The notes under the pieces are model-generated. The model worked only from the letters and a program-made list of their open reading frames with translations. It did not search any database and was not told the DNA's origin. From a virus, in the IMG/VR virus record IMGVR_UViG_3300028393_000135, positions 1-41,003 of that record: a stretch of DNA of 41,003 bases; one strand, 5' to 3'. The translations under genes and the position numbers were made by a program. Numbering within the stretch: position 1 is the first letter of the stretch; each line of letters starts with the position of its first letter. This document shows positions 1-41,003 of this stretch, one piece after another.

Positions 1-280
1 CGTACTGAGTAATAGAGAATTGAGCCGCAGAAATAGGGCTATCAGGGGTGATGTTCAATACTTCGTAACCGCTATATGAATTTGCGTTATTGGTATTTGG
101 ATCGTTGTACATGATTTCTTGCAAAATCACATTACCGCCTGAGAACGGTTGAACATTTCCTTTAGCGTTCAAACGCTGTAGGATCGCATTGTTTTGTGTT
201 AAGTTATCAGCCAAAATTCCGCTACGGCTTTGTATGGTAGTAGCGATAATATCGGTGATTGCTGAGTTAGCAAATGCCAT
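1..280 (-). CDS. Major capsid protein, N-terminal part (left copy, intronless, runs off window)
   Basis: The first 93 codons of a major capsid (coat) protein, starting at the ATG at 280 and running off the left edge. The translation begins MAFANSAITDIIATT and continues without interruption through NVILQEIMYNDPNTNN. The same protein is encoded at 35013-36464, where an intron interrupts the gene inside the leucine codon of VILQEI. Here the equivalent codons read ATT TTG CAA with no insertion, so this is an intron-minus allele. The scaffold gene lies just upstream (304-1398), the usual head-gene order. The assignment rests on synteny and on the C-terminal sequence of the right-hand copy. Confidence 0.8.
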   Translation of the reverse strand, partial: MAFANSAITDIIATTIQSRSGILADNLTQNNAILQRLNAKGNVQPFSGGNVILQEIMYNDPNTNNANSYSGYEVLNITPDSPISAAQFSITQY

Positions 281-303
281 GATATTTCCTTTATTAGATT
301 AAG

Positions 304-1398
304 TTAAACCCGACCACCCTCAACATCGGCTAAAGAAGCCAACAGTAAAGATCGTCTATCCTTTGCATCTGTGTTTTTCACCTGACCGCTAGGAGTAACG
401 GATTTTGGACTAACAGCAGTTGCTTTAGCTTTAGCTACTTGTTGTGCCTTAGACGCTTGTGAACTTGTTGATCTCAGGAGTTTATCCTGTTCTAACTTGA
501 ACGCTTCGTCATTCATACGCACCGCTTTGGCATAAGCCGATTCTAGGTCTTGGGCTAAACCTCGCTCAAGTAATTGAGCCATATCTTCCCTTACCATATC
601 AAAGTGCGGAAACCGCTCTTTGTTACTACTTACCCGACTGATTTCATTACTCAATCGAGCATTTTCTTCTTGCTCCCGTATTGCCGACAGTTGCTGAACT
701 TGTTGCTGGGTAGCTTGAAGTTGTTGCATTAACTGTTGCTGATACGGGTCAACATACGCCTGTTCAGGCATCTGAAGTGCATCTTGATTTAATTGTATTC
801 CATAATCTTGTGCAAGTCTATTAAAGGCAGTTAACTTTTGCTCGTAAGATCCGTTAGCTAAAGTGTAGTGTGCTCGACCTAAATTGTTAATCCAAGCAGA
901 CGGTGAAATACCGTGCCTTTGCAATTCAGGAATGAACGGGCCAATAGCGTTAGTTATTTCCCTAGCGTTGTCGGCTTCAGCTTTGTAGGTAGATACGCCT
1001 TTTTTGTACTCAGCTTCGCGTTGGTTAGCATATTCAGCAAACTTAACGAATTCAGCTTTATCTAGCGGCTTACCTTCCTGCATCTTGTCCCAAACATCCC
1101 TATATTCCTTTTTCCATGTGGTAGGGCGTTTTACTTCGGTTTCTTCATTAGCATCACTAGCTTCATTAACCAGTTCAGGTTCTTCAGCGGAATCGTCTTG
1201 GCTACTGGTTTCTTCGGCATTGCTTTTGAAACGACCTTTTTCGTCACGGTCTGTTTGGCTACTGTTTTCTTCGTTTTCGGCTTGGATTGGATCGTCATTT
1301 ACTTCAATCTCCTTTTCAATGGGGGCTTCTAAAGTGCCTTCTTCGGCTTGTTCAAGTGCGGCTTCTAGCATCTCTCTGCGGTCTAATTCTTCTGCCAT
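304..1398 (-). CDS. Scaffolding protein (left copy)
   Basis: A 364-aa acidic, Q/E-rich protein directly upstream of the capsid gene, the standard place for a scaffold that guides prohead assembly. The N-terminal ~90 residues are low-complexity E/N/S/D. Around residues 95-130 there is a segment containing TTWKKEYRDVWDKMQEGKPL, recurrent in phage scaffold proteins. A predicted coiled coil with runs of glutamine lies near residues 215-250, and the C-terminus is basic (DRRSLLLASLADVEGGRV), as expected for coat binding. It is nearly identical to the protein at 36488-37594 except in the acidic linker, which has small insertions and deletions. It starts at an ATG preceded by AGGAATTAATC. Function is inferred from position and composition. 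Confidence 0.75.
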   Translation of the reverse strand: MAEELDRREMLEAALEQAEEGTLEAPIEKEIEVNDDPIQAENEENSSQTDRDEKGRFKSNAEETSSQDDSAEEPELVNEASDANEETEVKRPTTWKKEYRDVWDKMQEGKPLDKAEFVKFAEYANQREAEYKKGVSTYKAEADNAREITNAIGPFIPELQRHGISPSAWINNLGRAHYTLANGSYEQKLTAFNRLAQDYGIQLNQDALQMPEQAYVDPYQQQLMQQLQATQQQVQQLSAIREQEENARLSNEISRVSSNKERFPHFDMVREDMAQLLERGLAQDLESAYAKAVRMNDEAFKLEQDKLLRSTSSQASKAQQVAKAKATAVSPKSVTPSGQVKNTDAKDRRSLLLASLADVEGGRV

Positions 1399-1407
1399 GA
1401 TTAATTC

Positions 1408-1785
1408 CTATCTGTAGTTGAGTTTGGAGTAAGCTATTTCCGCAATTTGTTGCTTGCGTTCTTGCTGTTCTTTTCTTGAAAATTCATGCACTTTTTGACC
1501 TGTTGGCACATCGTTACCTAGCTCAACACAACCATTTCGCTTAAGGTTTTCCCTATGTTTAGAACGGCTATCAATCCATGAGCCATCAGCCATAGATATA
1601 TGACCAGCTATATCTGAAATAACTGTAGGGGCTACCCTAGACCTCATTGCCACCTTATCTTGCCAAGATGCTTTGGCGGCTTCCTCGCCAATAGTCGGTG
1701 TCCACCATTCAAGGAAGAATTCTTCGTCAGTTTTTTGGACTTCTATGTGATTTCCTTCGGAATATCCGCATTTTGGGCAGAGCAT
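1408..1785 (-). CDS. Conserved head-module protein with CxxC N-terminus (left copy)
   Basis: A 125-aa protein between the glycosyltransferase and the scaffold. The N-terminus contains CPKCGYSEGNH, half of a zinc ribbon, with no clear second CxxC pair. The C-terminal ~70 residues (HISMADGSWIDSRSKHRENLKRNGC and after) are almost identical to the copy at 37604-38002, whereas the first ~55 residues differ strongly between the copies. It overlaps the upstream gene by one base (TAATG), so translation is probably coupled. I do not recognise a function. The basic C-terminal half (RKEQQERKQQ) could bind nucleic acid or scaffold. Confidence 0.7.
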   Translation of the reverse strand: MLCPKCGYSEGNHIEVQKTDEEFFLEWWTPTIGEEAAKASWQDKVAMRSRVAPTVISDIAGHISMADGSWIDSRSKHRENLKRNGCVELGNDVPTGQKVHEFSRKEQQERKQQIAEIAYSKLNYR

Positions 1786-2690
1786 TACATTCTCCTTATA
1801 AGTTCAGGTAGTTGGTCGTATTCTTCGGGTCTAAGTAGGCAAACGCTGTCATACCAACGGGCATTTTTCCACCGCCAGCAGACAAATTCCTCTTTTGGCA
1901 ACAAAACGATACATTTAACGCCCAAAGCACCAGCAAGGTGAGCCGTTCCTGTGTCAACAGTCACAATTCCCTTCATGGCCTTCATGTGAGAAGCAGTCTG
2001 AACCCAATTTTTCTTCCATCCATCGTTAGGAAGTGGGTGAAATAAGCCATCAGAGTTAGGATTTAGCGAATATGCGTCATCCCCGACCATTTCAGCCATG
2101 TGTTGATGGGCAACGGACTTGATGTAATACAAGGTTTGCTTAGATGCTTCCCAATTCACACCGATTTTGGGTGGAATATTGCTAGGCAGAGCGTGTAAAT
2201 AGCCTTCTGAACCTACAATCTTGTTCCGTGTAACGGGAAATAGCGATTTTACAATGGGATGGGCTAACGAAATATAGTACGGGAGCGACATTGACCCGAT
2301 CCAGTAATCAGATTCGTTAGAAATACCCTCTAAACCGTTGCTAAACACATCTACAGCGTGTATTTGACCTAACAGGTGGTGCAATGTACCTTCTTGCAGA
2401 ACAACGACCCTAGACGCTCCTAATGCCTTTAATGCTGGCAAGAATCGGGCAAACATAATAATGTCCCCAAAACCTTGTTCCATTTGTACAGTAATGGATT
2501 TCCCTATTAGGGCTTCCCCTCTCCATACAGGCATCTTTAATGCAGGTGCGTAAGGCTGGGCTTGTTTGGCAATAATGTCAGGATGCCAGCGGTATTCAAA
2601 TCCTCTAAAGCCAGCTTCATATCTGCCAGCGTGTAGGTGCTCGTAAGCTAATTTGTATTGGCTATCAGCGTCTAGTGCAGTAGTAGTAAT
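1785..2690 (-). CDS. Glycosyltransferase-like protein, probable AUU start (left copy)
   Basis: A probable glycosyltransferase resembling the GT9/heptosyltransferase-like domains found next to TPR repeats. Seen: a nucleotide-binding type segment GKSITVQMEQGFGDIIMFARF, and a C-terminal VTVDTGTAHLAGALGVKCIVLLP typical of GT9 enzymes (sugar-donor site). The first ATG is at 2534, but 52 further conserved codons precede it (YKLAYEHLHAGRYEAGF, a TPR-like helix pair) with no ATG, GTG or TTG. The only good start is an ATT at 2690-2688, seven bases after GAGG. The copy at 38002-38907 has the same arrangement. Substrate unknown; it might modify host LPS or a virion protein. The family call is from motifs, and the start is inference. 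Confidence 0.72.
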   Translation of the reverse strand: MTTTALDADSQYKLAYEHLHAGRYEAGFRGFEYRWHPDIIAKQAQPYAPALKMPVWRGEALIGKSITVQMEQGFGDIIMFARFLPALKALGASRVVVLQEGTLHHLLGQIHAVDVFSNGLEGISNESDYWIGSMSLPYYISLAHPIVKSLFPVTRNKIVGSEGYLHALPSNIPPKIGVNWEASKQTLYYIKSVAHQHMAEMVGDDAYSLNPNSDGLFHPLPNDGWKKNWVQTASHMKAMKGIVTVDTGTAHLAGALGVKCIVLLPKEEFVCWRWKNARWYDSVCLLRPEEYDQLPELIRRM

Positions 2691-3148
2691 AGTGCAACCT
2701 CATCGTCTAGTTCCTCTAGGCGTTTGGCTTCCATATACCGCAGATTCTCTTGAATGAGATTTTGCTGTTTTCTAAAAGCTACTGCCGCAAGGATGTTATC
2801 CCGTTGTTTTTCAAGGTAGCTTATAGACCGCTGTAATTCTTCTGTTTCAGCTAACGGTATATCAGCTTTAACCTCTTGTTTTGATTGTACTTTAGATTGC
2901 TTAACTTTTGCAATAGGCGTTGGATCTATCTGATCCTTAAATGCTTGCTTGCGTGAAGCGTTAGCGTCTTTGGTAGCTTGCTCTAGTTTGCGTTGACGCT
3001 CCGCAATCTTTTTATTTAACTTTTGTGCTCGATCCCATTCTTCTTTTGTCCAGCCATCGCCACCAGCTACTACAGTAGGAGTAGGCGGTAATCCGCTTAT
3101 CTGAAACGCATTGTTTTGAAACGCATTGGCTTGAAAAGCTGTTTGCAA
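2672..3148 (-). CDS. Coiled-coil protein of the fibre/head module (left copy)
   Basis: A 158-aa hypothetical protein. The N-terminus has a repeated FQxNAFQ motif (FQANAFQNNAFQISG), followed by a glycine/proline linker and then a long charged helix with coiled-coil character (KLNKKIAERQRKLEQATKDA; a second around LQRSISYLEKQRDNILA). It ends in leucines (ALLLLLH). It overlaps the next gene's proposed ATT start by 19 bases. The homologue at 38889-39359 keeps the helices but has diverged between residues 15 and 35. The F-x-x-N-A-F repeat next to fibres suggests a virion or adaptor peptide, but no known function is recognised. Confidence 0.65.
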   Translation of the reverse strand: MQTAFQANAFQNNAFQISGLPPTPTVVAGGDGWTKEEWDRAQKLNKKIAERQRKLEQATKDANASRKQAFKDQIDPTPIAKVKQSKVQSKQEVKADIPLAETEELQRSISYLEKQRDNILAAVAFRKQQNLIQENLRYMEAKRLEELDDEVALLLLLH

Positions 3149-3150
3149 AA

Positions 3151-3399
3151 TTAACCTACCAATGCAGTTACTTCAGCTTGGGTTAAACCAAGTGCAGTTA
3201 GTTTAGATAAGGCTGATTCTTTGGCGGCTACTTCTGCTTCTCGTTTAGCAACTTCTTCGGCTTGTAATTCAATCAATTTAGCTTCTGCGGCAGATTTGTC
3301 GTATGCAACTTCATTGCCTTCTTGGTCATAAGCTATTTCACCACAAATACTTTTTACAGTAGGGTTTAGTGCGTAAATTCCATCGTGAATACTTATCAT
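3151..3399 (-). CDS. Small fibre-partner protein, paralogue of 23209-23436
   Basis: An 82-aa protein whose start codon overlaps the end of the tail fibre (ATGATAAG type overlap). The N-terminal half has a small beta-rich motif (ISIHDGIYALNP...GEIAYDQEGNEVAYD). The C-terminal half is an alanine/glutamate helix ending KLTALGLTQAEVTALVG. The protein at 23209-23436 has the same plan and the same ending (KLAALGLTQDEVKSLIG), and it also follows a fibre with the same C-terminal domain. This co-occurrence suggests that it binds, folds or caps that fibre tip. It is absent after the right-hand fibre (39359-41003), which has a different tip. Confidence 0.65.
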   Translation of the reverse strand: MISIHDGIYALNPTVKSICGEIAYDQEGNEVAYDKSAAEAKLIELQAEEVAKREAEVAAKESALSKLTALGLTQAEVTALVG

Positions 3400-5576
3400 C
3401 CTGCAATCTCCATAAGAATAAGCGTTGAAGTATCTTGTGTACCGCTTAATTGAACTGTATTACCTAAACGGCTATACCATTGCAATTTATAAGTAGTTGC
3501 AGAAGTGGTTGCAGGGCTATCTAAATAATTAAGACAAGTTGAAGAAGATTGCCAATCAATAGATGTATTACTGTAGCTGACATTTAAAGTTACGGCAATT
3601 TGCGAAGCACCCCTTAACATCCTAAAAGATGCCGCTTGGTTTGCAACGGCAGTATGATAAATACCATTTAATGTAGTTATTACTAATATTTTGCTAGTTG
3701 AAAATTTAGGGGTAATAGTGGCTGTAAAATTAGTTACATCCGTAAAAGATGATGAAGTTGTAGATACTGTTGTTTCAGTTGAGTATTGAACCACTTGCAA
3801 TACACTACCTGCTGGCATTGCTCCATACCCTAAGCCTGTAGCATTAGTCAAAACAATGGCAGATGGAGTGCCTAAAGCAGGGGTTACTAAAGTAGGGGAT
3901 GTAGAAAGTACATTATTGCCCGAACCAGTAGATGTAGTAACTCCTGTACCGCCATTAGTTACTGGCAAAGTTCCTGTTACACCAGTTGTTAGTGGTAATC
4001 CTGTAGCATTTGTCAATGTGGCAGAAGATGGTGTGCCTAATGCACCACCAACAGAATACTTACCATTAAAAGTAGTCCAATCTGTACTGGTCAAGTAGCC
4101 ATTTACGCTAGTTGTAGCCGCCGCCATGCTAATAGCTGGGGTTGCACCGCCTGAAGATACTACTGGGGCAGTACCCGTCACAGAAGTAACTGTTCCGCTA
4201 CCTTTGTTATTAAATGTAGTCCAATCTGCGGCACTTAAAGCACCACGATTAGTAGCTGAAGCTGTTGGCACTTGCAGAGTGATTACAGGGGTTGTAGTGC
4301 CTGTAGCTACGGTAGATGATAGGTCAGTACCAGTTGTGCCTAAAGTTATTGCCGCTACGGATGTAACAGTTCCCGATCCCTTATTATTAAAGGTAGTCCA
4401 ATCCGTGCTAGTCAGGTATCCATTAACGCTAGTTGTAGCCGCTGGCATAGCAATGACAGGCGTTGTTCCACCAGTTGAAGTAACAGGGCTTGTAGCTGTT
4501 ACTGAAGTAACTGTACCCGAACCTTTATTGTTAAATGTTGTCCAATCGGTTGATGTTAAATAACCATTTACAGAAGTCGTGGCGGCTGGCATGGATATAG
4601 CAGGGGTAGCACCACCACTAGAAACTACAGGACTTGTGCCAGTTACGCTAGTTACCGTTCCTACGCTGATTGAACCACCAAGGCTTGTGCTTGTACCGTT
4701 AATGGTAATGGCAGAGTTTGTAAGGCTTGCATTTCCAATATTGCTTAAAGTATTGGTAGATCCTGAAATAGACTTATTGGTAAAAGTATCTGTTGTTGAT
4801 TTGCCGACCAAGGTATCTGTAGCATCAGGTAATGTCAAAGTCCTGTCTACGGTTTGACTTGTTGAAAGCATGGTTCTAGTGTTAGTAGTGCCGCCATCAG
4901 GGTTAAACATAAACCGTTTAGTGCTGTCTACACCACCTTGAACATTGATATAACCACTAGCACCTTTAGGGGCTAAATGAATACCAATGTTTGTATCTGT
5001 ACCTGTTGCTGATATATGAACAGGATTGCCAGTTGAAGCGTTTTCTATGGTTACTTGATTAACTGCACTTGCAATAGCTGAAAACTTTAATTCAGCGTTT
5101 CCATTGGAATCGTTAATTTGAGCTATTACTGGGGTAACAATAGTAGGACTGCCACTTAATACCACATTTGTAGTGCCTGTAGAAGTTGTTACTCCTGTGC
5201 CACCATTGGCAACAGGCAAGGCTGTGCCTGAATAAGTTAAGGCTAAAGTTCCTGAAGTTGTGATTGGACTGCCTGCAACACTTAAAAATGCTGGAACAGT
5301 TGCGGCAACAGAAGTAACCGTACCTGAACCACCTGAAACCGTAGCCCATGAAGCATCAGTTCCGTTAGTTGTTAGGTATTTACCACTATTGGCAGTTTGT
5401 GATGGCAATAAAGCATTTAATCCATCACTAGCCGTAGACGCACCAGTTCCCCCGTTGGCTACAGGGACAGTACCCGTAAGCGTATGGTCAGCGTTCCAAT
5501 CTGACGGCTGAACTAGGGTTGTATCCCCAGCATCAGGTATTGCTGAAATCTTACTGTGCTTGACTGTTATAGCCAT
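3396..5576 (-). CDS. Tail fibre, repeat-containing (left copy)
   Basis: A 726-aa tail fibre. The N-terminus (MAITVKHSKISAIPDAGDTT, then NADHTLTGTVPVANGGTGAST) is typical of phage fibre and tail-collar type proteins. The middle contains about four ~48-residue repeats of the form GTVTSVTGTSPVVSSGGATP, followed by NGYLTSTDWTTFNNKGS. The C-terminal ~140 residues (from VLQVVQYSTETTVSTTSS to LMEIAG) form a separate receptor-binding-like domain, homologous to the end of the 151-aa protein at 23433-23888. It lies between portal and the coiled-coil gene, an unusual place for a fibre but conserved in both copies. Compared with 39359-41003, the shaft is similar but the tip is different, which points to module exchange. 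Confidence 0.85.
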   Translation of the reverse strand: MAITVKHSKISAIPDAGDTTLVQPSDWNADHTLTGTVPVANGGTGASTASDGLNALLPSQTANSGKYLTTNGTDASWATVSGGSGTVTSVAATVPAFLSVAGSPITTSGTLALTYSGTALPVANGGTGVTTSTGTTNVVLSGSPTIVTPVIAQINDSNGNAELKFSAIASAVNQVTIENASTGNPVHISATGTDTNIGIHLAPKGASGYINVQGGVDSTKRFMFNPDGGTTNTRTMLSTSQTVDRTLTLPDATDTLVGKSTTDTFTNKSISGSTNTLSNIGNASLTNSAITINGTSTSLGGSISVGTVTSVTGTSPVVSSGGATPAISMPAATTSVNGYLTSTDWTTFNNKGSGTVTSVTATSPVTSTGGTTPVIAMPAATTSVNGYLTSTDWTTFNNKGSGTVTSVAAITLGTTGTDLSSTVATGTTTPVITLQVPTASATNRGALSAADWTTFNNKGSGTVTSVTGTAPVVSSGGATPAISMAAATTSVNGYLTSTDWTTFNGKYSVGGALGTPSSATLTNATGLPLTTGVTGTLPVTNGGTGVTTSTGSGNNVLSTSPTLVTPALGTPSAIVLTNATGLGYGAMPAGSVLQVVQYSTETTVSTTSSSFTDVTNFTATITPKFSTSKILVITTLNGIYHTAVANQAASFRMLRGASQIAVTLNVSYSNTSIDWQSSSTCLNYLDSPATTSATTYKLQWYSRLGNTVQLSGTQDTSTLILMEIAG
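4065..4660 (-). repeat. In-frame ~144-bp tandem repeats in the tail-fibre shaft
   Basis: About four tandem units of ~48 codons inside the fibre gene, each ending in a conserved NGYLTSTDWTTFN(N/G)K segment. One unit has a divergent middle (GTTGTDLSSTVATG) and ADWTTFNNK instead of TDWTTFNNK. Repeats of this kind allow shaft-length change by recombination. The boundaries are approximate. Confidence 0.7.
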
Positions 5577-16667: not shown

Positions 16668-16896
16668 AGTGATCCTTAATTAGTTTTTTGTCTTTTTCAA
16701 TAAACTCTTTGATGATGTTTTTTGCTCGTTCAATGACATCATCTTCAGGTTTAACTTTGTACACATCAATTGCTTGGGTAATAAGACTGATAAGTCCGTG
16801 CTGGACAAGACACTCAAGTCCTGCTTTGTCAAAATTAACTTGAGCATCGGCTGACCCATCTTTATTCTCTTTGACTATCTTTACTTGTATCTTCAT
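16588..16896 (-). CDS. Early hypothetical protein, 102 aa
   Basis: A lysine-rich protein (MKIQVKIVKENKDGSADAQV, then DKAGLECLVQHGLISLITQA). The middle is helical and the tail is polar and basic (NRTRNKKHNA). I place the start at the ATG at 16896; a TTG three codons upstream is possible. It overlaps the upstream gene by 35 bases. No family is recognised. Confidence 0.6.
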   Translation of the reverse strand: MKIQVKIVKENKDGSADAQVNFDKAGLECLVQHGLISLITQAIDVYKVKPEDDVIERAKNIIKEFIEKDKKLIKDHYEPLFTGNLAPNHSTDNRTRNKKHNA

Positions 16897-17098
16897 TATT
16901 TGCAAACTTTAAAATAGGTTTATCCAAAGCAAGTTTAGCTAGTTCTATGTAACGGTCTACTTCTAGCCTGTCCTCGCCACCAACAGCCGCACTACTGTGT
17001 CCAATCGGCTTTCCCATCGTGTCGTAATACACTTCACGAATCTCAAAGTAATCCTCGTATGGACTACTCAAATTTACTAAACGCAAGTTCCAAGTCAT
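16862..17098 (-). CDS. Early hypothetical protein, 78 aa
   Basis: Begins MTWNLRLVNLSSPYEDYFEI, then REVYYDTMGKPIGHSSAAVG. The alternation suggests a small beta-sheet domain with a helical C-terminus. Similar small proteins (W-N-L-R-L-V N-terminus, Y-D-x-x-G-K-P-x-G-H) occur in early regions of tailed phages. The start at 17098 is chosen because GGTGAAAAC precedes it and the ATGA overlap joins it to the 32-aa membrane protein. Unknown function. Confidence 0.65.
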   Translation of the reverse strand: MTWNLRLVNLSSPYEDYFEIREVYYDTMGKPIGHSSAAVGGEDRLEVDRYIELAKLALDKPILKFANNEDTSKDSQRE

Positions 17099-35012: not shown

Positions 35013-36464
35013 TTAAGTTGTCAAAACACCTTGCAAAAACGCATTTGAACAAGTCAAATTTCCAGCCCAACCATACAACTTCACAATCTTTCTGTTACTT
35101 CGGCTTTCGCCTACTGACCATTTTCATGGCGGAGCAACTTCTTCGAATCGCTCTCTAGGACTTCAAACTTCAAGTTATATCCTAGTTCAGACTATCGCTT
35201 ACTCTTTCGAGCCCATCTCACTTAGTCGTTCACGGTGGCTTTCGCCTTCCGCCCTGTCATCCCCTTCGGGATTTCCAAGTCAATCAGAGTTGGTTTATAG
35301 ACACCATTAATGCAATGTAGGTTTAGCGTCTTGGTTAATGGATTGGCGTTCTCCACCGATAGGAACGAAATTACGCTCTTTATGTGGACGCAAGAAAATG
35401 TAATTTGTGTTTAGCAAATACATATATGTTGCGTTTTCTTGAGCACCGTAACCGCCACCCAAGATCACATCAGCAGACATACCGCCACCGTAGAACTTGA
35501 GGGAAGCGAAACCAGCCGCACCTTCTTCTACACCTGCGATACGCTGAATAGCCTGTAAAGACTGAACATAGTATGAGTAGAAAGTGTTACCAGCTACGAT
35601 TGTGTCAACCTTATCAGTTCCGCGAACAGACTTGATAGCGGCATCAGTCATTTTAGCTTGAATGTTTGCGTAACCAGTTACACCAGTTGTCGCTTGATTC
35701 TGCCAAAATGTCCAGTTGGCACGATTTATGCCACCGTACACGCCCGACGTAGGGCTAGTACTAACGGCCGCGGCCAATCCGGTGATGTTTTTTCCCCCGT
35801 TACCTGTACCGTCACCATAGATGTCAGTAGAAATACGGTTCAACAAACGAGCTTCAGAAACTTGCATACGGCCGTCTAACAGGTCGATGATCTGTTCCTT
35901 AGAACTGTTTTGCAACATTTCTAGACCACTCATTGTCACAGAATCAGCGTACTGCGTAATGCTGAACTGAGCCGCAGAGATAGGGCTATCAGGGGTAATA
36001 TTCAATACTTCATAACCGCTATACGAGTTAGCATTATTTGTATTTGGATCGTTGTACATAATTTCTTGGCACTGTTGTTACGAACCGATCCAGTTCGGCA
36101 TAGTCATTTCTGCTATGCTCTTGGACTTAAATTACTTCAAGTTATATCCAAGGTCAGACTATCGCTCCATCCGTTTCGGATGCCCTCTCACTTAGTCGTT
36201 CAGGCTGTATTTAAACTTGCCCCTTGTTGTCCCCTTCGGGAGTTCCAAGCCAATCAGAGAAGGTTCTCACATCTACATTCGACTGTAGAGTGACCCCATT
36301 TAACTAAGGATTACATTTCCCCCACTAAAAGGCTGTACATTCCCTTTAGCTTGTAAGCGTTGAAGAATCGCATTGTTTTGTGTTAAGTTATCTGCCAATA
36401 CTCCGCTACGGCTTTGAATGGTAGTAGCGATAATATCGGTGATTGCTGAATTAGCAAATGCCAT
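35013..36464 (-). CDS. Major capsid protein, split by two group I introns
   Basis: Three exons join into 984 nt (327 aa): 36464-36307, 36069-35315 and 35083-35013. Exon 1 begins MAFANSAITDIIATT and ends inside the Leu codon of NVIL. Exon 2 continues QEIMYNDPNTNNANSYSGYE to DAKPT. Exon 3 encodes KLYGWAGNLTCSNAFLQGVLTT after the rebuilt Leu codon. GWAGNLTCSNAFLQGVLTT is a characteristic coat-protein C-terminus, and no stop occurs in the joined frame, whereas exon 2 alone stops within the intron. The left-end copy (1-280) reads through the first junction without an intron. The protein forms the capsid lattice. Downstream are the 97-aa head gene and a terminator. Splice points are chosen by frame, the U-G pair at the 5' site and a G at the intron end. 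Confidence 0.85.
35084..35314 (-). ncRNA. Group I intron 2 in the major capsid gene
   Basis: A 231-nt insertion near the 3' end of the capsid gene. The 5' splice site is ACAT|TG, where ACAU pairs with GUGU in the intron (U-G at the splice site). It ends in G before TGAAG. The core matches intron 1: GGAAATCCCGAAGGGGAT, then GAACGACTAAGTGAGATGG and AAGCGATAGTCTGA, forming P7 (TAGTC/GACTA on the plus strand at 35223-35227 and 35190-35194), with a GCTC-GAAA-GAGT P8 hairpin between. A CTAGGA/TCCTAG helix follows (35155-35160, 35180-35185). No ORF is present, so it has no homing endonuclease of its own. Confidence 0.85.
36070..36306 (-). ncRNA. Group I intron 1 in the major capsid gene
   Basis: A 237-nt insertion after codon 52 plus two bases of the capsid gene. 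The 5' exon ends AUCCU, which pairs with GGGGU in the intron, with the U-G wobble at the splice site. The intron ends in G before CCAAGAAATT. Core: GCTTGGAACTCCCGAAGGGG, then GAACGACTAAGTGAGAGGGC, a P8 hairpin CATCCG-AAA-CGGATG, and GAGCGATAGTCTGACC closing P7 (36157-36161 with 36193-36197). A CTTGGA/TCCAAG helix follows (36120-36125 with 36147-36152). The equivalent helix in intron 2 is CTAGGA/TCCTAG, a compensatory change. The intron is ORF-less, and absent from the left copy at about 126-130. Confidence 0.88.
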
Positions 36465-36487
36465 GATATTTCCTTTATTAGATTAAG

Positions 36488-37594
36488 TTAAACCCGACCA
36501 CCTTCAACATCGGCTAAAGAAGCCAACAATAAAGATCGTCTATCCTTTGCATCTGTGTTTTTCACCTGACCGCTAGGAGTAACGGACTTTGGACTAACAG
36601 CAGTCGCTTTAGCTTTAGCTACTTGTTGTGCCTTAGATGCTTGTGAACTCGTTGATCTCAGGAGTTTATCCTGCTCCAACTTGAACGCTTCATCATTCAT
36701 ACGCACAGCTTTGGCATAAGCCGATTCTAGGTCTTGGGCTAAACCTCGCTCAAGTAATTGAGCCATATCTTCCCTTACCATATCAAAGTGCGGAAACCGC
36801 TCTCTGTCACTACTTACCCGATTGATTTCATTACTCAATCGAGCATTTTCTTCTTGCTCCCGTATCGCTGATAGTTGCTGAACTTGTTGCTGGGTAGCTT
36901 GAAGTTGTTGCATTAACTGTTGCTGATACGGATCAACATACGCCTGTTCAGGCATCTGAAGTGCATCTTGGTTTAATTGTATTCCATAATCTTGTGCAAG
37001 TCTATTAAACGCAGTTAGCTTTTGCTCGTAAGAACCGTTGGCTAAAGTGTAATGTGCTCTACCTAAATTGTTAATCCAAGCAGAAGGTGAAATACCATGC
37101 TTTTGCAATTCAGGAATAAATGGGCCAATAGCGTTAGTTATCTCTCTAGCATTGTCGGCTTCAGCTTTGTAGGTAGATACGCCTTTTTTGTATTCAGCTT
37201 CACGCTGGTTGGCATATTCAGCAAACTTAATAAATTCAGCCTTGTCTAATGGCTTGCCTTCCTGCATCTTGTCCCAAACATCCCGATACTCTTTTTTCCA
37301 AGTAGTAGGGCGTTTTACTTCGGCTTCTTCATTATCATCACCAGCTTCATTAGCCAGTTCAGATTCTTGATTGGAATTGTCTTGGCTACTGGTTTCTTCG
37401 GCATTGCTTTTGAAACGACCTTTTTCGTCACGGTCGTTGCTTTTTTGGCTACTATCGTTGCTTTCTTGGTTTTCGGCTTGGATTGGGTCGTCATTTACTT
37501 CAATCTCCTTTTCAATGGGGGCTTCTAATGTACCTTCTTCGGCTTGTTCTAATGCGGCTTCTAGCATTTCTCTGCGGTCTAATTCTTCTGCCAT
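36488..37594 (-). CDS. Scaffolding protein (right copy)
   Basis: A 368-aa scaffold, nearly identical to 304-1398, just upstream of the capsid gene. Differences cluster in the acidic linker (residues ~40-90), where a SNDSSQKSNDRDEKG-type insertion replaces the left version, and in scattered conservative changes. It has the same coiled coil near residues 220-255 and the same basic C-terminus. Role inferred from gene order. Confidence 0.75.
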   Translation of the reverse strand: MAEELDRREMLEAALEQAEEGTLEAPIEKEIEVNDDPIQAENQESNDSSQKSNDRDEKGRFKSNAEETSSQDNSNQESELANEAGDDNEEAEVKRPTTWKKEYRDVWDKMQEGKPLDKAEFIKFAEYANQREAEYKKGVSTYKAEADNAREITNAIGPFIPELQKHGISPSAWINNLGRAHYTLANGSYEQKLTAFNRLAQDYGIQLNQDALQMPEQAYVDPYQQQLMQQLQATQQQVQQLSAIREQEENARLSNEINRVSSDRERFPHFDMVREDMAQLLERGLAQDLESAYAKAVRMNDEAFKLEQDKLLRSTSSQASKAQQVAKAKATAVSPKSVTPSGQVKNTDAKDRRSLLLASLADVEGGRV

Positions 37595-37603
37595 GATTAA
37601 TTC

Positions 37604-38002
37604 CTATCTGTAGTTGAGTTTGGAGTAAGCTATTTCCGCAATTTGTTGCTTGCGTTCTTGCTGTTCTTTTCTTGAAAATTCATGCACTTTTTGCTGTAAT
37701 GGAACATCATTACCCAACTCAACACAATTGTTGCGTTTTAAATTTTCACGGTGCTTTGAACGGCTGGATACCCAAGTACCATCAGCCATGCTTATATGAC
37801 CGTTGATGTCAGGAAGTACCATTGGGGCTTCTTTAGGTGTCATATCTAACTTGGCTTGCCATGCTTTATCGGCTTCTTCGCCTTCAAACGGCAAATTCCA
37901 ATACGCTAAGTACTTTTCACGGTCATTATATTGCGTTGCATCATATTCTTCGTGGTCAACCTTACAATGTATGCAAGTTACCGTCTTTTTTACTAAAGCC
38001 AT
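37604..38002 (-). CDS. Conserved head-module protein with CxxC N-terminus (right copy)
   Basis: A 132-aa homologue of 1408-1785. The N-terminus is different (ALVKKTVTCIHCKVDHEEYD, one CxxC), but the C-terminal ~70 residues (HISMADGTWVSSRSKHRENL and after) are conserved. The bipartite divergence suggests that the N-terminal half has been replaced by recombination or is under diversifying pressure. Function unknown. Confidence 0.7.
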   Translation of the reverse strand: MALVKKTVTCIHCKVDHEEYDATQYNDREKYLAYWNLPFEGEEADKAWQAKLDMTPKEAPMVLPDINGHISMADGTWVSSRSKHRENLKRNNCVELGNDVPLQQKVHEFSRKEQQERKQQIAEIAYSKLNYR

Positions 38003-38907
38003 TACATTCTCCTTATCAGTTCAGGCAGTTGGTCGTATTCTTCGGGTCTGAGTAGGCAAATGCTGTCATACCAACGGGCATTTTTCCATCGCCAGCAAAC
38101 AAATTCTTCTTTTGGTAGCAAAACAATACATTTCACGCCCAAAGCACCAGCAAGGTGAGCCGTTCCTGTGTCAACGGTCACGATTCCCTTCATGGCTTTC
38201 ATGTGGCTGGCTGTTTGTACCCAGTTTTTCTTCCATCCATCATTAGGAAGTGGGTGAAATAGGCCATCAGAGTTAGGATTGAGCGAATATGCGTCATCTC
38301 CAACCAGTTCAGCCATGTGTTGATGGGCAATAGACTTGATGTAATACAGAGTTTGTTTGGATGCTTCCCAATTTACCCCTATTTTGGGTGGAATATTGCT
38401 AGGCAGGGCGTGTAGATAGCCTTCTGAACCCACAATCTTGTTCCGTGTAACGGGAAATAGCGATTTAACAAGGGGGTGCATCAAAGAAATATAGTACGGG
38501 AGTGACATTGAGCCAATCCAATAGTCAGATTCGTTGGCAATACCCTCTAATCCATTGCTAAACACATCTACAGCGTGTATTTGACCTAATAGGTGGTGCA
38601 ATGTACCTTCTTGCAGGACAACGACCCTAGATGCCCCCAATGCTTTCAAAGCTGGCAAAAATCGGGCAAACATAATGATGTCACCAAATCCCTGTTCCAT
38701 TTGTACGGTGATGGATTTACCTATCAGCGGCTCACCTCTCCATACAGGCATTTTTAAAGCAGGTGCGTAAGGTTGGGCTTGTTTGGCAATAATGTCAGGA
38801 TGCCAGCGGTATTCAAATCCTCTAAATCCAGCTTCATACCTTCCAGCGTGTAAATGCTCGTAAGCTAACTTGTATTGTGCGTCAGCGTCTAATGTAGAAG
38901 TATTAAT
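38002..38907 (-). CDS. Glycosyltransferase-like protein, probable AUU start (right copy)
   Basis: The homologue of 1785-2690, with identical length if started at the ATT at 38907-38905, seven bases after GAGG. It carries the same GKSITVQMEQGFGDI and VTVDTGTAHLAGALGVKC motifs. The ATG at 38751 would remove a conserved TPR-like segment. The 5' part varies around the start (INTSTLDADAQ instead of ITTTALDADSQ), but the ATT and the GAGG are kept. Confidence 0.72.
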   Translation of the reverse strand: MNTSTLDADAQYKLAYEHLHAGRYEAGFRGFEYRWHPDIIAKQAQPYAPALKMPVWRGEPLIGKSITVQMEQGFGDIIMFARFLPALKALGASRVVVLQEGTLHHLLGQIHAVDVFSNGLEGIANESDYWIGSMSLPYYISLMHPLVKSLFPVTRNKIVGSEGYLHALPSNIPPKIGVNWEASKQTLYYIKSIAHQHMAELVGDDAYSLNPNSDGLFHPLPNDGWKKNWVQTASHMKAMKGIVTVDTGTAHLAGALGVKCIVLLPKEEFVCWRWKNARWYDSICLLRPEEYDQLPELIRRM

Positions 38908-39359
38908 ACGGATTCCTCATCGTCTAGTTCCTCTAGGCGTTTGGCTTCCATATACATCAATTGCTCTTGAATAAGAGTTTGTTGTTTTCTGTAAGCTACT
39001 GCCGCAAGGATGTTATCCCGTTGTCTTTCGAGGTAGCTTATAGACCGTTGTAAATCTTCTGTTTCAGCTAACGGTATATCAGCCTTAACCTCTTGTTTTG
39101 ATTGTACTTTAGATTGCTTAACTTTTGCAACAGGCGATACTAGATCACGAATGGATTGTTTACGACTAGCATTAGCATCTTTAATAGCTTGCTCTAGCTT
39201 GCGTTGACGCTCTGCAATCTTTTTGCCTAATCGTTGTGCTCGTAACCATTCTTCTTTGGTAAAGCCATCGCCACCAATTTGCCCTGTTGGGGTCGGTGCT
39301 ACATAGACCTGAAAGGCATTGTTTTGAAACGCATTAGCTTGAAAAGCCGTTGAAAACAT
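38889..39359 (-). CDS. Coiled-coil protein of the fibre/head module (right copy)
   Basis: A 156-aa homologue of 2672-3148: MFSTAFQANAFQNNAFQVYV, then a linker with GQIGGDGFTKEEWLRAQRLG and the same two helical blocks. The start overlaps the fibre stop (TAATG), whereas the left copy starts after the 82-aa partner gene. This position shift accompanies the fibre-tip exchange. Function unknown. Confidence 0.65.
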   Translation of the reverse strand: MFSTAFQANAFQNNAFQVYVAPTPTGQIGGDGFTKEEWLRAQRLGKKIAERQRKLEQAIKDANASRKQSIRDLVSPVAKVKQSKVQSKQEVKADIPLAETEDLQRSISYLERQRDNILAAVAYRKQQTLIQEQLMYMEAKRLEELDDEESVLILLH

Positions 39360-41003
39360 TACAAAACTACCCAGCGTGACCCACTAGAAACTGTCACAGC
39401 TTGACCTGAAGCTACGGTCATTGGCCCTGCACTCATGGCACTTGAGCCGCTAGGGATTGTATAGCTTGCCGATACAGTATTGCTATTTACGACTATGCCG
39501 TTAGTAGCTTGAATGACTGTACCCTTGACGCTATTTGGGGAAGTTCCACCGATAGCAGGGGGGCTAGATAAATCTAATGTGCCGCCAAGTGTCAGGTTGC
39601 CAGTAGAAGTAACCGTACCGCTAAGACTAATTCCTGAAACTGTACCTGTACCGCTTACGCTGGTAACCGTGCCTGAACCCTTGTTATTAAAGGTTGTCCA
39701 ATCGGTGCTAGTCAGATAGCCGTTTACTGAACCTGTAGCGGCTGCCATACTAATTGCTGGGGTTGCACCGCCTGAAGATACAACGGGAGCAGTACCCGTT
39801 ACAGAAGTAACTGTTCCGCTACCTTTGCTATTAAAGGTGTTCCAATCTGTAGAAGTTAGATAACCGCTTACAGAAGTGGTGGCCGCTGGCATTGCAATGG
39901 TAGGTGTTGTACCGCCTGAACTGGTAACAGGGCTGGTTGCCGCTACGGATGTTACATAAGTTCCAGCAGGTTGTTTGCCATTAAATGTAGTCCAATCAGC
40001 ACTTGTAAGGTAGCCATTTACGCTACTTGTGGCGGCTGGCATTGATATAGCAGGAGTATTGCCACCGCTGGAAACTACTGGACTTGTACCAGTTACACTA
40101 GTAACCGTACCACCGCTAGATGGACTTGTGTTGGTAATCGTAAAATTAGGGTATGTACCGCTAGTAGAAATACCTGTACCAGCAGTCAAGACTACAGTTT
40201 GGTCAGGAGCAGTATTGGTAATGTTTAAAGTACCGCTACTGGTAATAGGGCTTCCAGTTACGCTAATTCCTGTACCTGCTGTTGCCGCTACGCTTGTAAC
40301 CGTTCCTACGCTGATTGAGCCACCAAGACTTGTGCTAGTGCCGTTGATGGTAATAGCTGAATTGGCTAATTGTGCGTTAGTTACTGTGCCCGATAAGTCA
40401 GTTGTAGGGATTGTAGAAGCGGCAGTTAAAGCACTTGTTCCGCTACCTTTCACATATCCAGTTAAAGTTGTAGCCCCAGTACCGCCCCTGTTTACTGCAA
40501 CAGTATTGCCATTCCAAGTAGTTGAAGTAATTGAGCCAGCATAATCAAATGTATTGGTAGACCAACTTACATTAGCTGGAGCATAATCATGCCTATCCCA
40601 AGAACCAGCCGCAGTTGCATTAGATAACAAATTAACCCGAACAAGACCACCGCTAGGTACAGAAACAATTAGCGTGTTGGAATTGTTATTAACAGTAATT
40701 GCACCGCTACTTTGGTTGTTATCAAATTCAAATATTTCGCCATTTACTAAAGTGGTTGCATCGGGCAATTTAATTGTTTGACCGCCTGAACCAGTAATAG
40801 TGTATCTGCGTACAGAAGCCGCAGTTGATACTATTTGTGTTCCTGAAGCGGCAGTATTGGTATATCCATCATTAAAAGCATTAGCATTTATGTTTACATT
40901 AGCATCACGCAAAACAACGCTGTTTGCACCACTTGAAGCTGTAACTCCAGTACCACCGTTTGCTACAGGTAAAGCCGTGCCTGAATAAGTTAAAGCCAAT
41001 GTT
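39359..41003 (-). CDS. Tail fibre (right copy, 5' end beyond window)
   Basis: A fibre open to the window edge (547+ residues, N-terminus missing). Its first visible segment (TLALTYSGTALPVANGGTGV) matches residues near 110-130 of the left fibre. About three 48-residue repeats with NGYLTSTDWTTFN(N/G/S)K follow. The C-terminus ends VSASYTIPSGSSAMSAGPMT, then ASGQAVTVSSGSRWVVL, a different tip from the left copy's LMEIAG domain but the same type as the end of 25848-26348. Probably a host-range determinant. Confidence 0.85.
   Translation of the reverse strand, partial: TLALTYSGTALPVANGGTGVTASSGANSVVLRDANVNINANAFNDGYTNTAASGTQIVSTAASVRRYTITGSGGQTIKLPDATTLVNGEIFEFDNNQSSGAITVNNNSNTLIVSVPSGGLVRVNLLSNATAAGSWDRHDYAPANVSWSTNTFDYAGSITSTTWNGNTVAVNRGGTGATTLTGYVKGSGTSALTAASTIPTTDLSGTVTNAQLANSAITINGTSTSLGGSISVGTVTSVAATAGTGISVTGSPITSSGTLNITNTAPDQTVVLTAGTGISTSGTYPNFTITNTSPSSGGTVTSVTGTSPVVSSGGNTPAISMPAATSSVNGYLTSADWTTFNGKQPAGTYVTSVAATSPVTSSGGTTPTIAMPAATTSVSGYLTSTDWNTFNSKGSGTVTSVTGTAPVVSSGGATPAISMAAATGSVNGYLTSTDWTTFNNKGSGTVTSVSGTGTVSGISLSGTVTSTGNLTLGGTLDLSSPPAIGGTSPNSVKGTVIQATNGIVVNSNTVSASYTIPSGSSAMSAGPMTVASGQAVTVSSGSRWVVL
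39660..40110 (-). repeat. In-frame ~144-bp repeats in the right fibre shaft
   Basis: About three repeats of the GTVTSV...TDWTTFN type, related to those at 4065-4660 but with a different order and count of units; one joint reads ADWTTFNGKQPAGTYVTSV. Boundaries are approximate. Confidence 0.65.

Follow-up and report, generated by a model that had tools for sequence, protein, structure and literature searches.

In this study, we describe a viral major head protein gene interrupted by two inserts, which very probably represent mobile group I introns without an open reading frame (ORF) and whose splicing would give a coat protein of 325 amino acids. The gene (phrog_9953, E 7.9e-69) is located on the minus strand of the window, i.e. 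the complete stretch of 41,003 nt that was analysed. The ORF at 36059-35307 (minus strand) represents the middle part of the major head protein, the exon upstream of this ORF ends with GTAATCCT, and the exon downstream begins with ATTGTGAAG. The gene is composed as follows, with the two inserts named A and B and with R1 standing for a covariance model of the intron family:

36307..36464, minus strand: exon 1 of the major head protein gene, 158 nt, codons 1-53; defined by reading frame and homology to intronless relatives
36070..36306, minus strand: intron A, putative group I, no ORF, 237 nt; R1 match, covariation, site occupied in relatives
35325..36069, minus strand: exon 2, 745 nt, to codon 301; carries the phrog_9953 match; border corrected
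35088..35324, minus strand: intron B, putative group I, no ORF, 237 nt; R1 match, P1/P10 in 15 relatives, P9/P9.1 covariation
35013..35087, minus strand: exon 3, 75 nt, codons 302-325 and stop; matches intronless relatives, IVKLYGWAGNLT

Removal of both inserts, as proposed in the original prediction, indeed results in a single open frame for the major head protein. The corrected coding sequence (158+745+75 nt) shows no insertion with respect to intronless relatives, and its product is identical to the coat protein of the intronless relative L005 at 322 of 325 positions. The dN/dS ratio of the joined exons against five intronless relatives is 0.045-0.055, which indicates that they are under strong purifying selection as one protein. 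Since 63 of the 80 nearest relatives in IMG/VR have no insert in the covered part of the coat gene, the inserts are true insertions, and their sequences show the unoccupied sites directly.

The predicted borders of intron A were retained, with AUCCU as the end of the 5′ exon and G as the last intron base. Its P1 is short, two of the 5 bp being G.U pairs, and no P10 could be assigned to intron A of the window. For intron B, the predicted position of 35084-35314 was wrong by 10 and 4 nt. The joint 35325/35087 gives DA/IVKLYG, and in coat proteins with about 63% identity (L084, L150 and others) the site-B introns are flanked by a 5′ exon ending with GACGCT and a 3′ exon starting with ATTGT. The guide GGUGUC or GGCGUC pairs with GACGCU over 6 bp ending with U.G in 15 of 15 site-B introns, all of which end with G and 14 of which have a complete P10 (AUUG/UAAU). 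P1, P10 and the terminal G thus place intron B at 35088-35324 with a length of 237 nt. The rejected borders lead to the joint DAKPTLKLYG, with two residues more than the intronless DAIVKLYG, and to a weaker P1; an exact degenerate pattern for the DAKPTLKLYG motif gave no match in the viral collection.

Structural elements were located as follows:

AUCCU/GGGGU, minus strand: P1 of intron A, 5 bp, read by eye
36257-36263 with 36183-36189, minus strand: P3 of intron A
36191-36197 and 36155-36161, minus strand: P7 of intron A
36168-36182, minus strand: P8 of intron A
36120-36152, minus strand: P9 of intron A
35300-35305 with exon GACGCU 35325-35330, minus strand: internal guide sequence of intron B
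35287-35293 with 35213-35219, minus strand: P3 of intron B, with one A.A mismatch
35221-35227 and 35188-35194, minus strand: P7 of intron B
35202-35211, minus strand: P8 of intron B
35155-35185, minus strand: P9 of intron B

Viral contigs were searched with two conserved patterns, each of which was found in at least 120 stretches. Fifty diverse introns of the family were aligned and the structure, with P3 and P7 crossing, was drawn by hand. In the P3-P8 core including the P3/P7 pseudoknot, 96.6% of the cells are paired, and 21 of the 28 core pairs, among them all seven of P3, show double changes and thus covary in these 50 introns. Double-change cells number 259, compared to 75 in shuffled alignments, and none of 500 shuffles reaches any of the core measures. 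Control structures slid along the alignment are 39-47% paired; the core structure, being derived from the same sequences, is somewhat favoured over such slid versions, but not to the observed extent. P9 and P9.1 also covary among the site-B introns, and P7.1/P7.2 are absent as read from the family alignment. Furthermore, both introns of the window fold more stably than shuffled sequences (z -3.5 and -3.1). The covariance model R1, created from this alignment, scores intron A with 112.7 bits (36151-36273) and intron B with 125.5 bits (35184-35303), values that follow by construction from the presence of both introns in the training set. Independent of this training are the covariation, the empty sites, and the matches to relatives recognized by RF00028 and to introns known to splice. 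The predicted group I identity is borne out by the covarying P3-P8 and P9 helices, the intact P7 and the P3/P7 pseudoknot, a P1 with its guide and a U.G pair at the 5′ site, the terminal G, and weak co-located Rfam matches in related introns. On these features, both inserts are classified as group I introns of a single family, each ORF-less and 237 nt long.

The expected significant match to the Rfam group I model RF00028 on the minus strand did not appear: the window gave no match even at E 10, and both introns lie below the gathering score. The model misses the family in general, as none of the 31 R1 introns tested (20 loci) reached the cut-off. Weak full-length RF00028 matches at R1 places do exist in related introns, among them one in L199 (E 7.8e-7) and one in L015, in its intron at site A (E 4.7e-5). 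As a positive control, a classical intron at codon 72 of the same gene in L018 scored 43.6 bits with RF00028. In phage T4, the only R1 match (E 0.115) coincides with the best RF00028 place, and two of the three best RF00028 places are likewise below the gathering score. R1 also finds the tail gene intron of phage BAKA (E 3.4e-4) and the capsid intron of LittleE (E 4.2e-3), which score 28.6 and 30.7 bits with RF00028 and for both of which splicing was demonstrated by RT-PCR (PMC3706429). Gaps of RF00028 with respect to phage introns have been noted before (PMC11878797). Its gathering score serves for detection and does not define what a group I intron is. RF00028 was therefore rejected as an arbiter, being insensitive to this lineage. 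The missing match in the window, although it corresponds to one of the two outcomes named as refuting in the original prediction, is thus not decisive.

From these features, we infer the following course of events. After transcription, each intron would fold into the P3-P8 ribozyme core, to which the 5′ splice site would dock as P1 with its terminal U.G pair. The first cut would be made by guanosine (GTP) and the second via the terminal G of the intron, so that the exons would be joined in vivo to the message for an ordinary coat protein of 325 amino acids. As suggested in the original prediction, the amount of coat protein may then hinge on how the RNA folds late in infection. Related phages would gain and lose the introns at fixed positions. 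As they encode no endonuclease, their movement is proposed to occur probably by recombination or by a homing endonuclease acting in trans.

The mobility of the introns is indicated by their patchy distribution. Introns are present in 17 of the 80 nearest relatives of the coat gene at four sites: A at codon 53 (occupied in 8 of the 80), D at codon 62, C at codon 72, which holds the classical type, and B, which separates codons 301 and 302. Intron-plus and intron-minus alleles thus exist at fixed sites, scattered over the tree of the host gene. On the coat-gene tree, in which frequencies are biased because the introns themselves had served to retrieve some of the rows, 8 changes are needed for site A, 9 for B and 6 for D. 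The intron tree shows clustering by site, which fits a site-specific spread. Intron B and its counterpart in L004 are 99.2% identical, the last 75 nt of exon 2 85%, and exon 3 92%. No homing endonuclease is contained in the introns (237 nt, no ORF) and none was recognized among the scanned ORFs of the window, a scan in which not every small ORF was run against both libraries; some members of the family elsewhere have a homing endonuclease gene nearby.

Three other explanations were considered, two of which concern the ends of the contig. Positions 1-5250 and 35948-41003 are homologous over about 5 kb without being identical (87% in the main block of 3 kb), and a second coat allele is present:

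2..280, minus strand: second coat allele, intronless, codons 1-93; empty site A GATTTT followed by GCAAGAAATC; protein 97.8% identical

The start of an intronless allele could mean that the copy with the inserts is dead or dispensable and that an intact coat gene, partly seen at 2-280, supplies the protein. We regard this as very improbable, given the strong purifying selection on the interrupted exons (dN/dS about 0.05) and nine related records with a single coat gene each, two of which are interrupted. Moreover, the whole end of about 5 kb is repeated and not the gene alone, as expected if the assembly ran over into another strain. Probably, the genome is circular with a length of about 36 kb, and its assembly continued past the start into a second strain; strains with and without the introns would thus both have been present in the sample. 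As a separate observation, the large ORF that precedes the head genes contains diverged repeats (about 70-75% identity) in each of the two strain copies, at 4059-4667 and 39663-40117.

The same mixing of strains at the contig ends might suggest that the inserts result from faulty assembly or from chimeric joins. This is effectively refuted, and its probability negligible, by many independent contigs in which the same inserts occupy exactly the same positions, L015, L017 and L184 carrying both A and B like the window. A more serious, albeit still unlikely, alternative is that the inserts possess a group I core and depend on a host or phage protein for splicing, or have lost the ability to splice efficiently. 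In vivo, proteins assist the splicing of many group I introns that require such help, and the small size of the introns points in the same direction. Against this stand the intact P7, the U.G pair, the terminal G and the covarying helices; in addition, efficient removal is to be expected because the most abundant protein of the virion must be made. The reading as group I introns that are spliced from the coat message is thus preferred.

Group I introns in coat genes, even several at once, have already been published. The introns of LittleE (capsid) and BAKA (tail) likewise reside in virion genes, with a U before the 5′ site, a terminal G and intronless relatives, and that of BAKA also lacks an ORF and is similar in length (265 nt). 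In contrast to the window, these phages have one intron per gene, in different coat and tail proteins, the LittleE intron carries an endonuclease gene, and splicing has been shown there whereas it is predicted here. The coat gene of the Zeta group of crAss-like phages occurs in five fragments with several group I introns (PMC7886860); these were recognized through encoded protein domains, which are missing from the introns of the window. The original statement that two introns in one structural gene are unusual was thus too strong, as was the one that placed them near the small end of group I, since small introns of about 206 nt on average are found in many genes of Jug phages (PMC12363816). 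The T4 introns (type IA2) and the codon-72 intron of L018 share P7 (GACUA/UAGUC) and the P3-P9 order with the introns of the window. The latter differ by a J3/4 of 7 nt (UGAUUGA), only 3 nt between P7 and P3, and scores below the RF00028 cut-off, and J8/7 ends with GCGA instead of the GAUA of L018. No description of this family was found in the open-access library that was searched. What is new is a large, coherent intron lineage below the Rfam threshold with many pairs of empty and occupied sites. It is conceivable, though only tentatively proposed, that it constitutes a distinct, uncatalogued group I subgroup (GCGA in J8/7, 7-nt J3/4, short P4), common in environmental phages and spreading among virion genes without an endonuclease of its own.

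The family occurs in at least 120 viral stretches, with P22-type coat, portal, tape measure, scaffold and ribonucleotide reductase genes as hosts. A pattern scan of bacterial genomes gave 44 matches, mostly due to chance, six of which are strongly supported by R1 (>50 bits). Two carriers are in culture, Roseobacter phage CRP-118, where the gene concerned is that of ribonucleotide reductase (OR420741, between 35056 and 35455), and Desulfovibrio phage 7757, so that splicing is directly testable. Furthermore, the coat gene with its four sites and many intron-plus and intron-minus phages offers a ready system for studying the movement of ORF-less introns and for asking whether splicing limits the coat supply. 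Many contigs (L199, L123, L096, L181, L167, L087 and L122) carry three or four closely grouped family introns, apparently within a single portal or coat gene, and multiple introns per gene are therefore common in the family. What appears to be a phage coat gene (phrog_1357) on contigs of Parachlamydia and Acidobacteria metagenome-assembled genomes (L267:3500-6600, L304:2800-4900) is cut by about five to eight such introns, some of which hold small ORFs; one encodes a DUF551 protein (E 1.5e-7), and another has cysteines and histidines in an HNH-like arrangement without a match to any Pfam model. The classical intron of L018 is located at about 3046-3328. L019 (1-437) has a classical codon-72 intron together with a family intron located some ten codons further upstream, and this coat gene is thus a target for intron types that are unrelated to each other.

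As Rfam misses the family, many coat, portal, tape-measure and reductase genes of environmental phages have likely been annotated as disrupted or been divided into several genes. An example is MW202674.1, where a family intron at 16872-17088 (L081:3989-4205) interrupts a P22 coat gene annotated as two coding sequences with a “hypothetical protein” in between, the latter being probably spurious.
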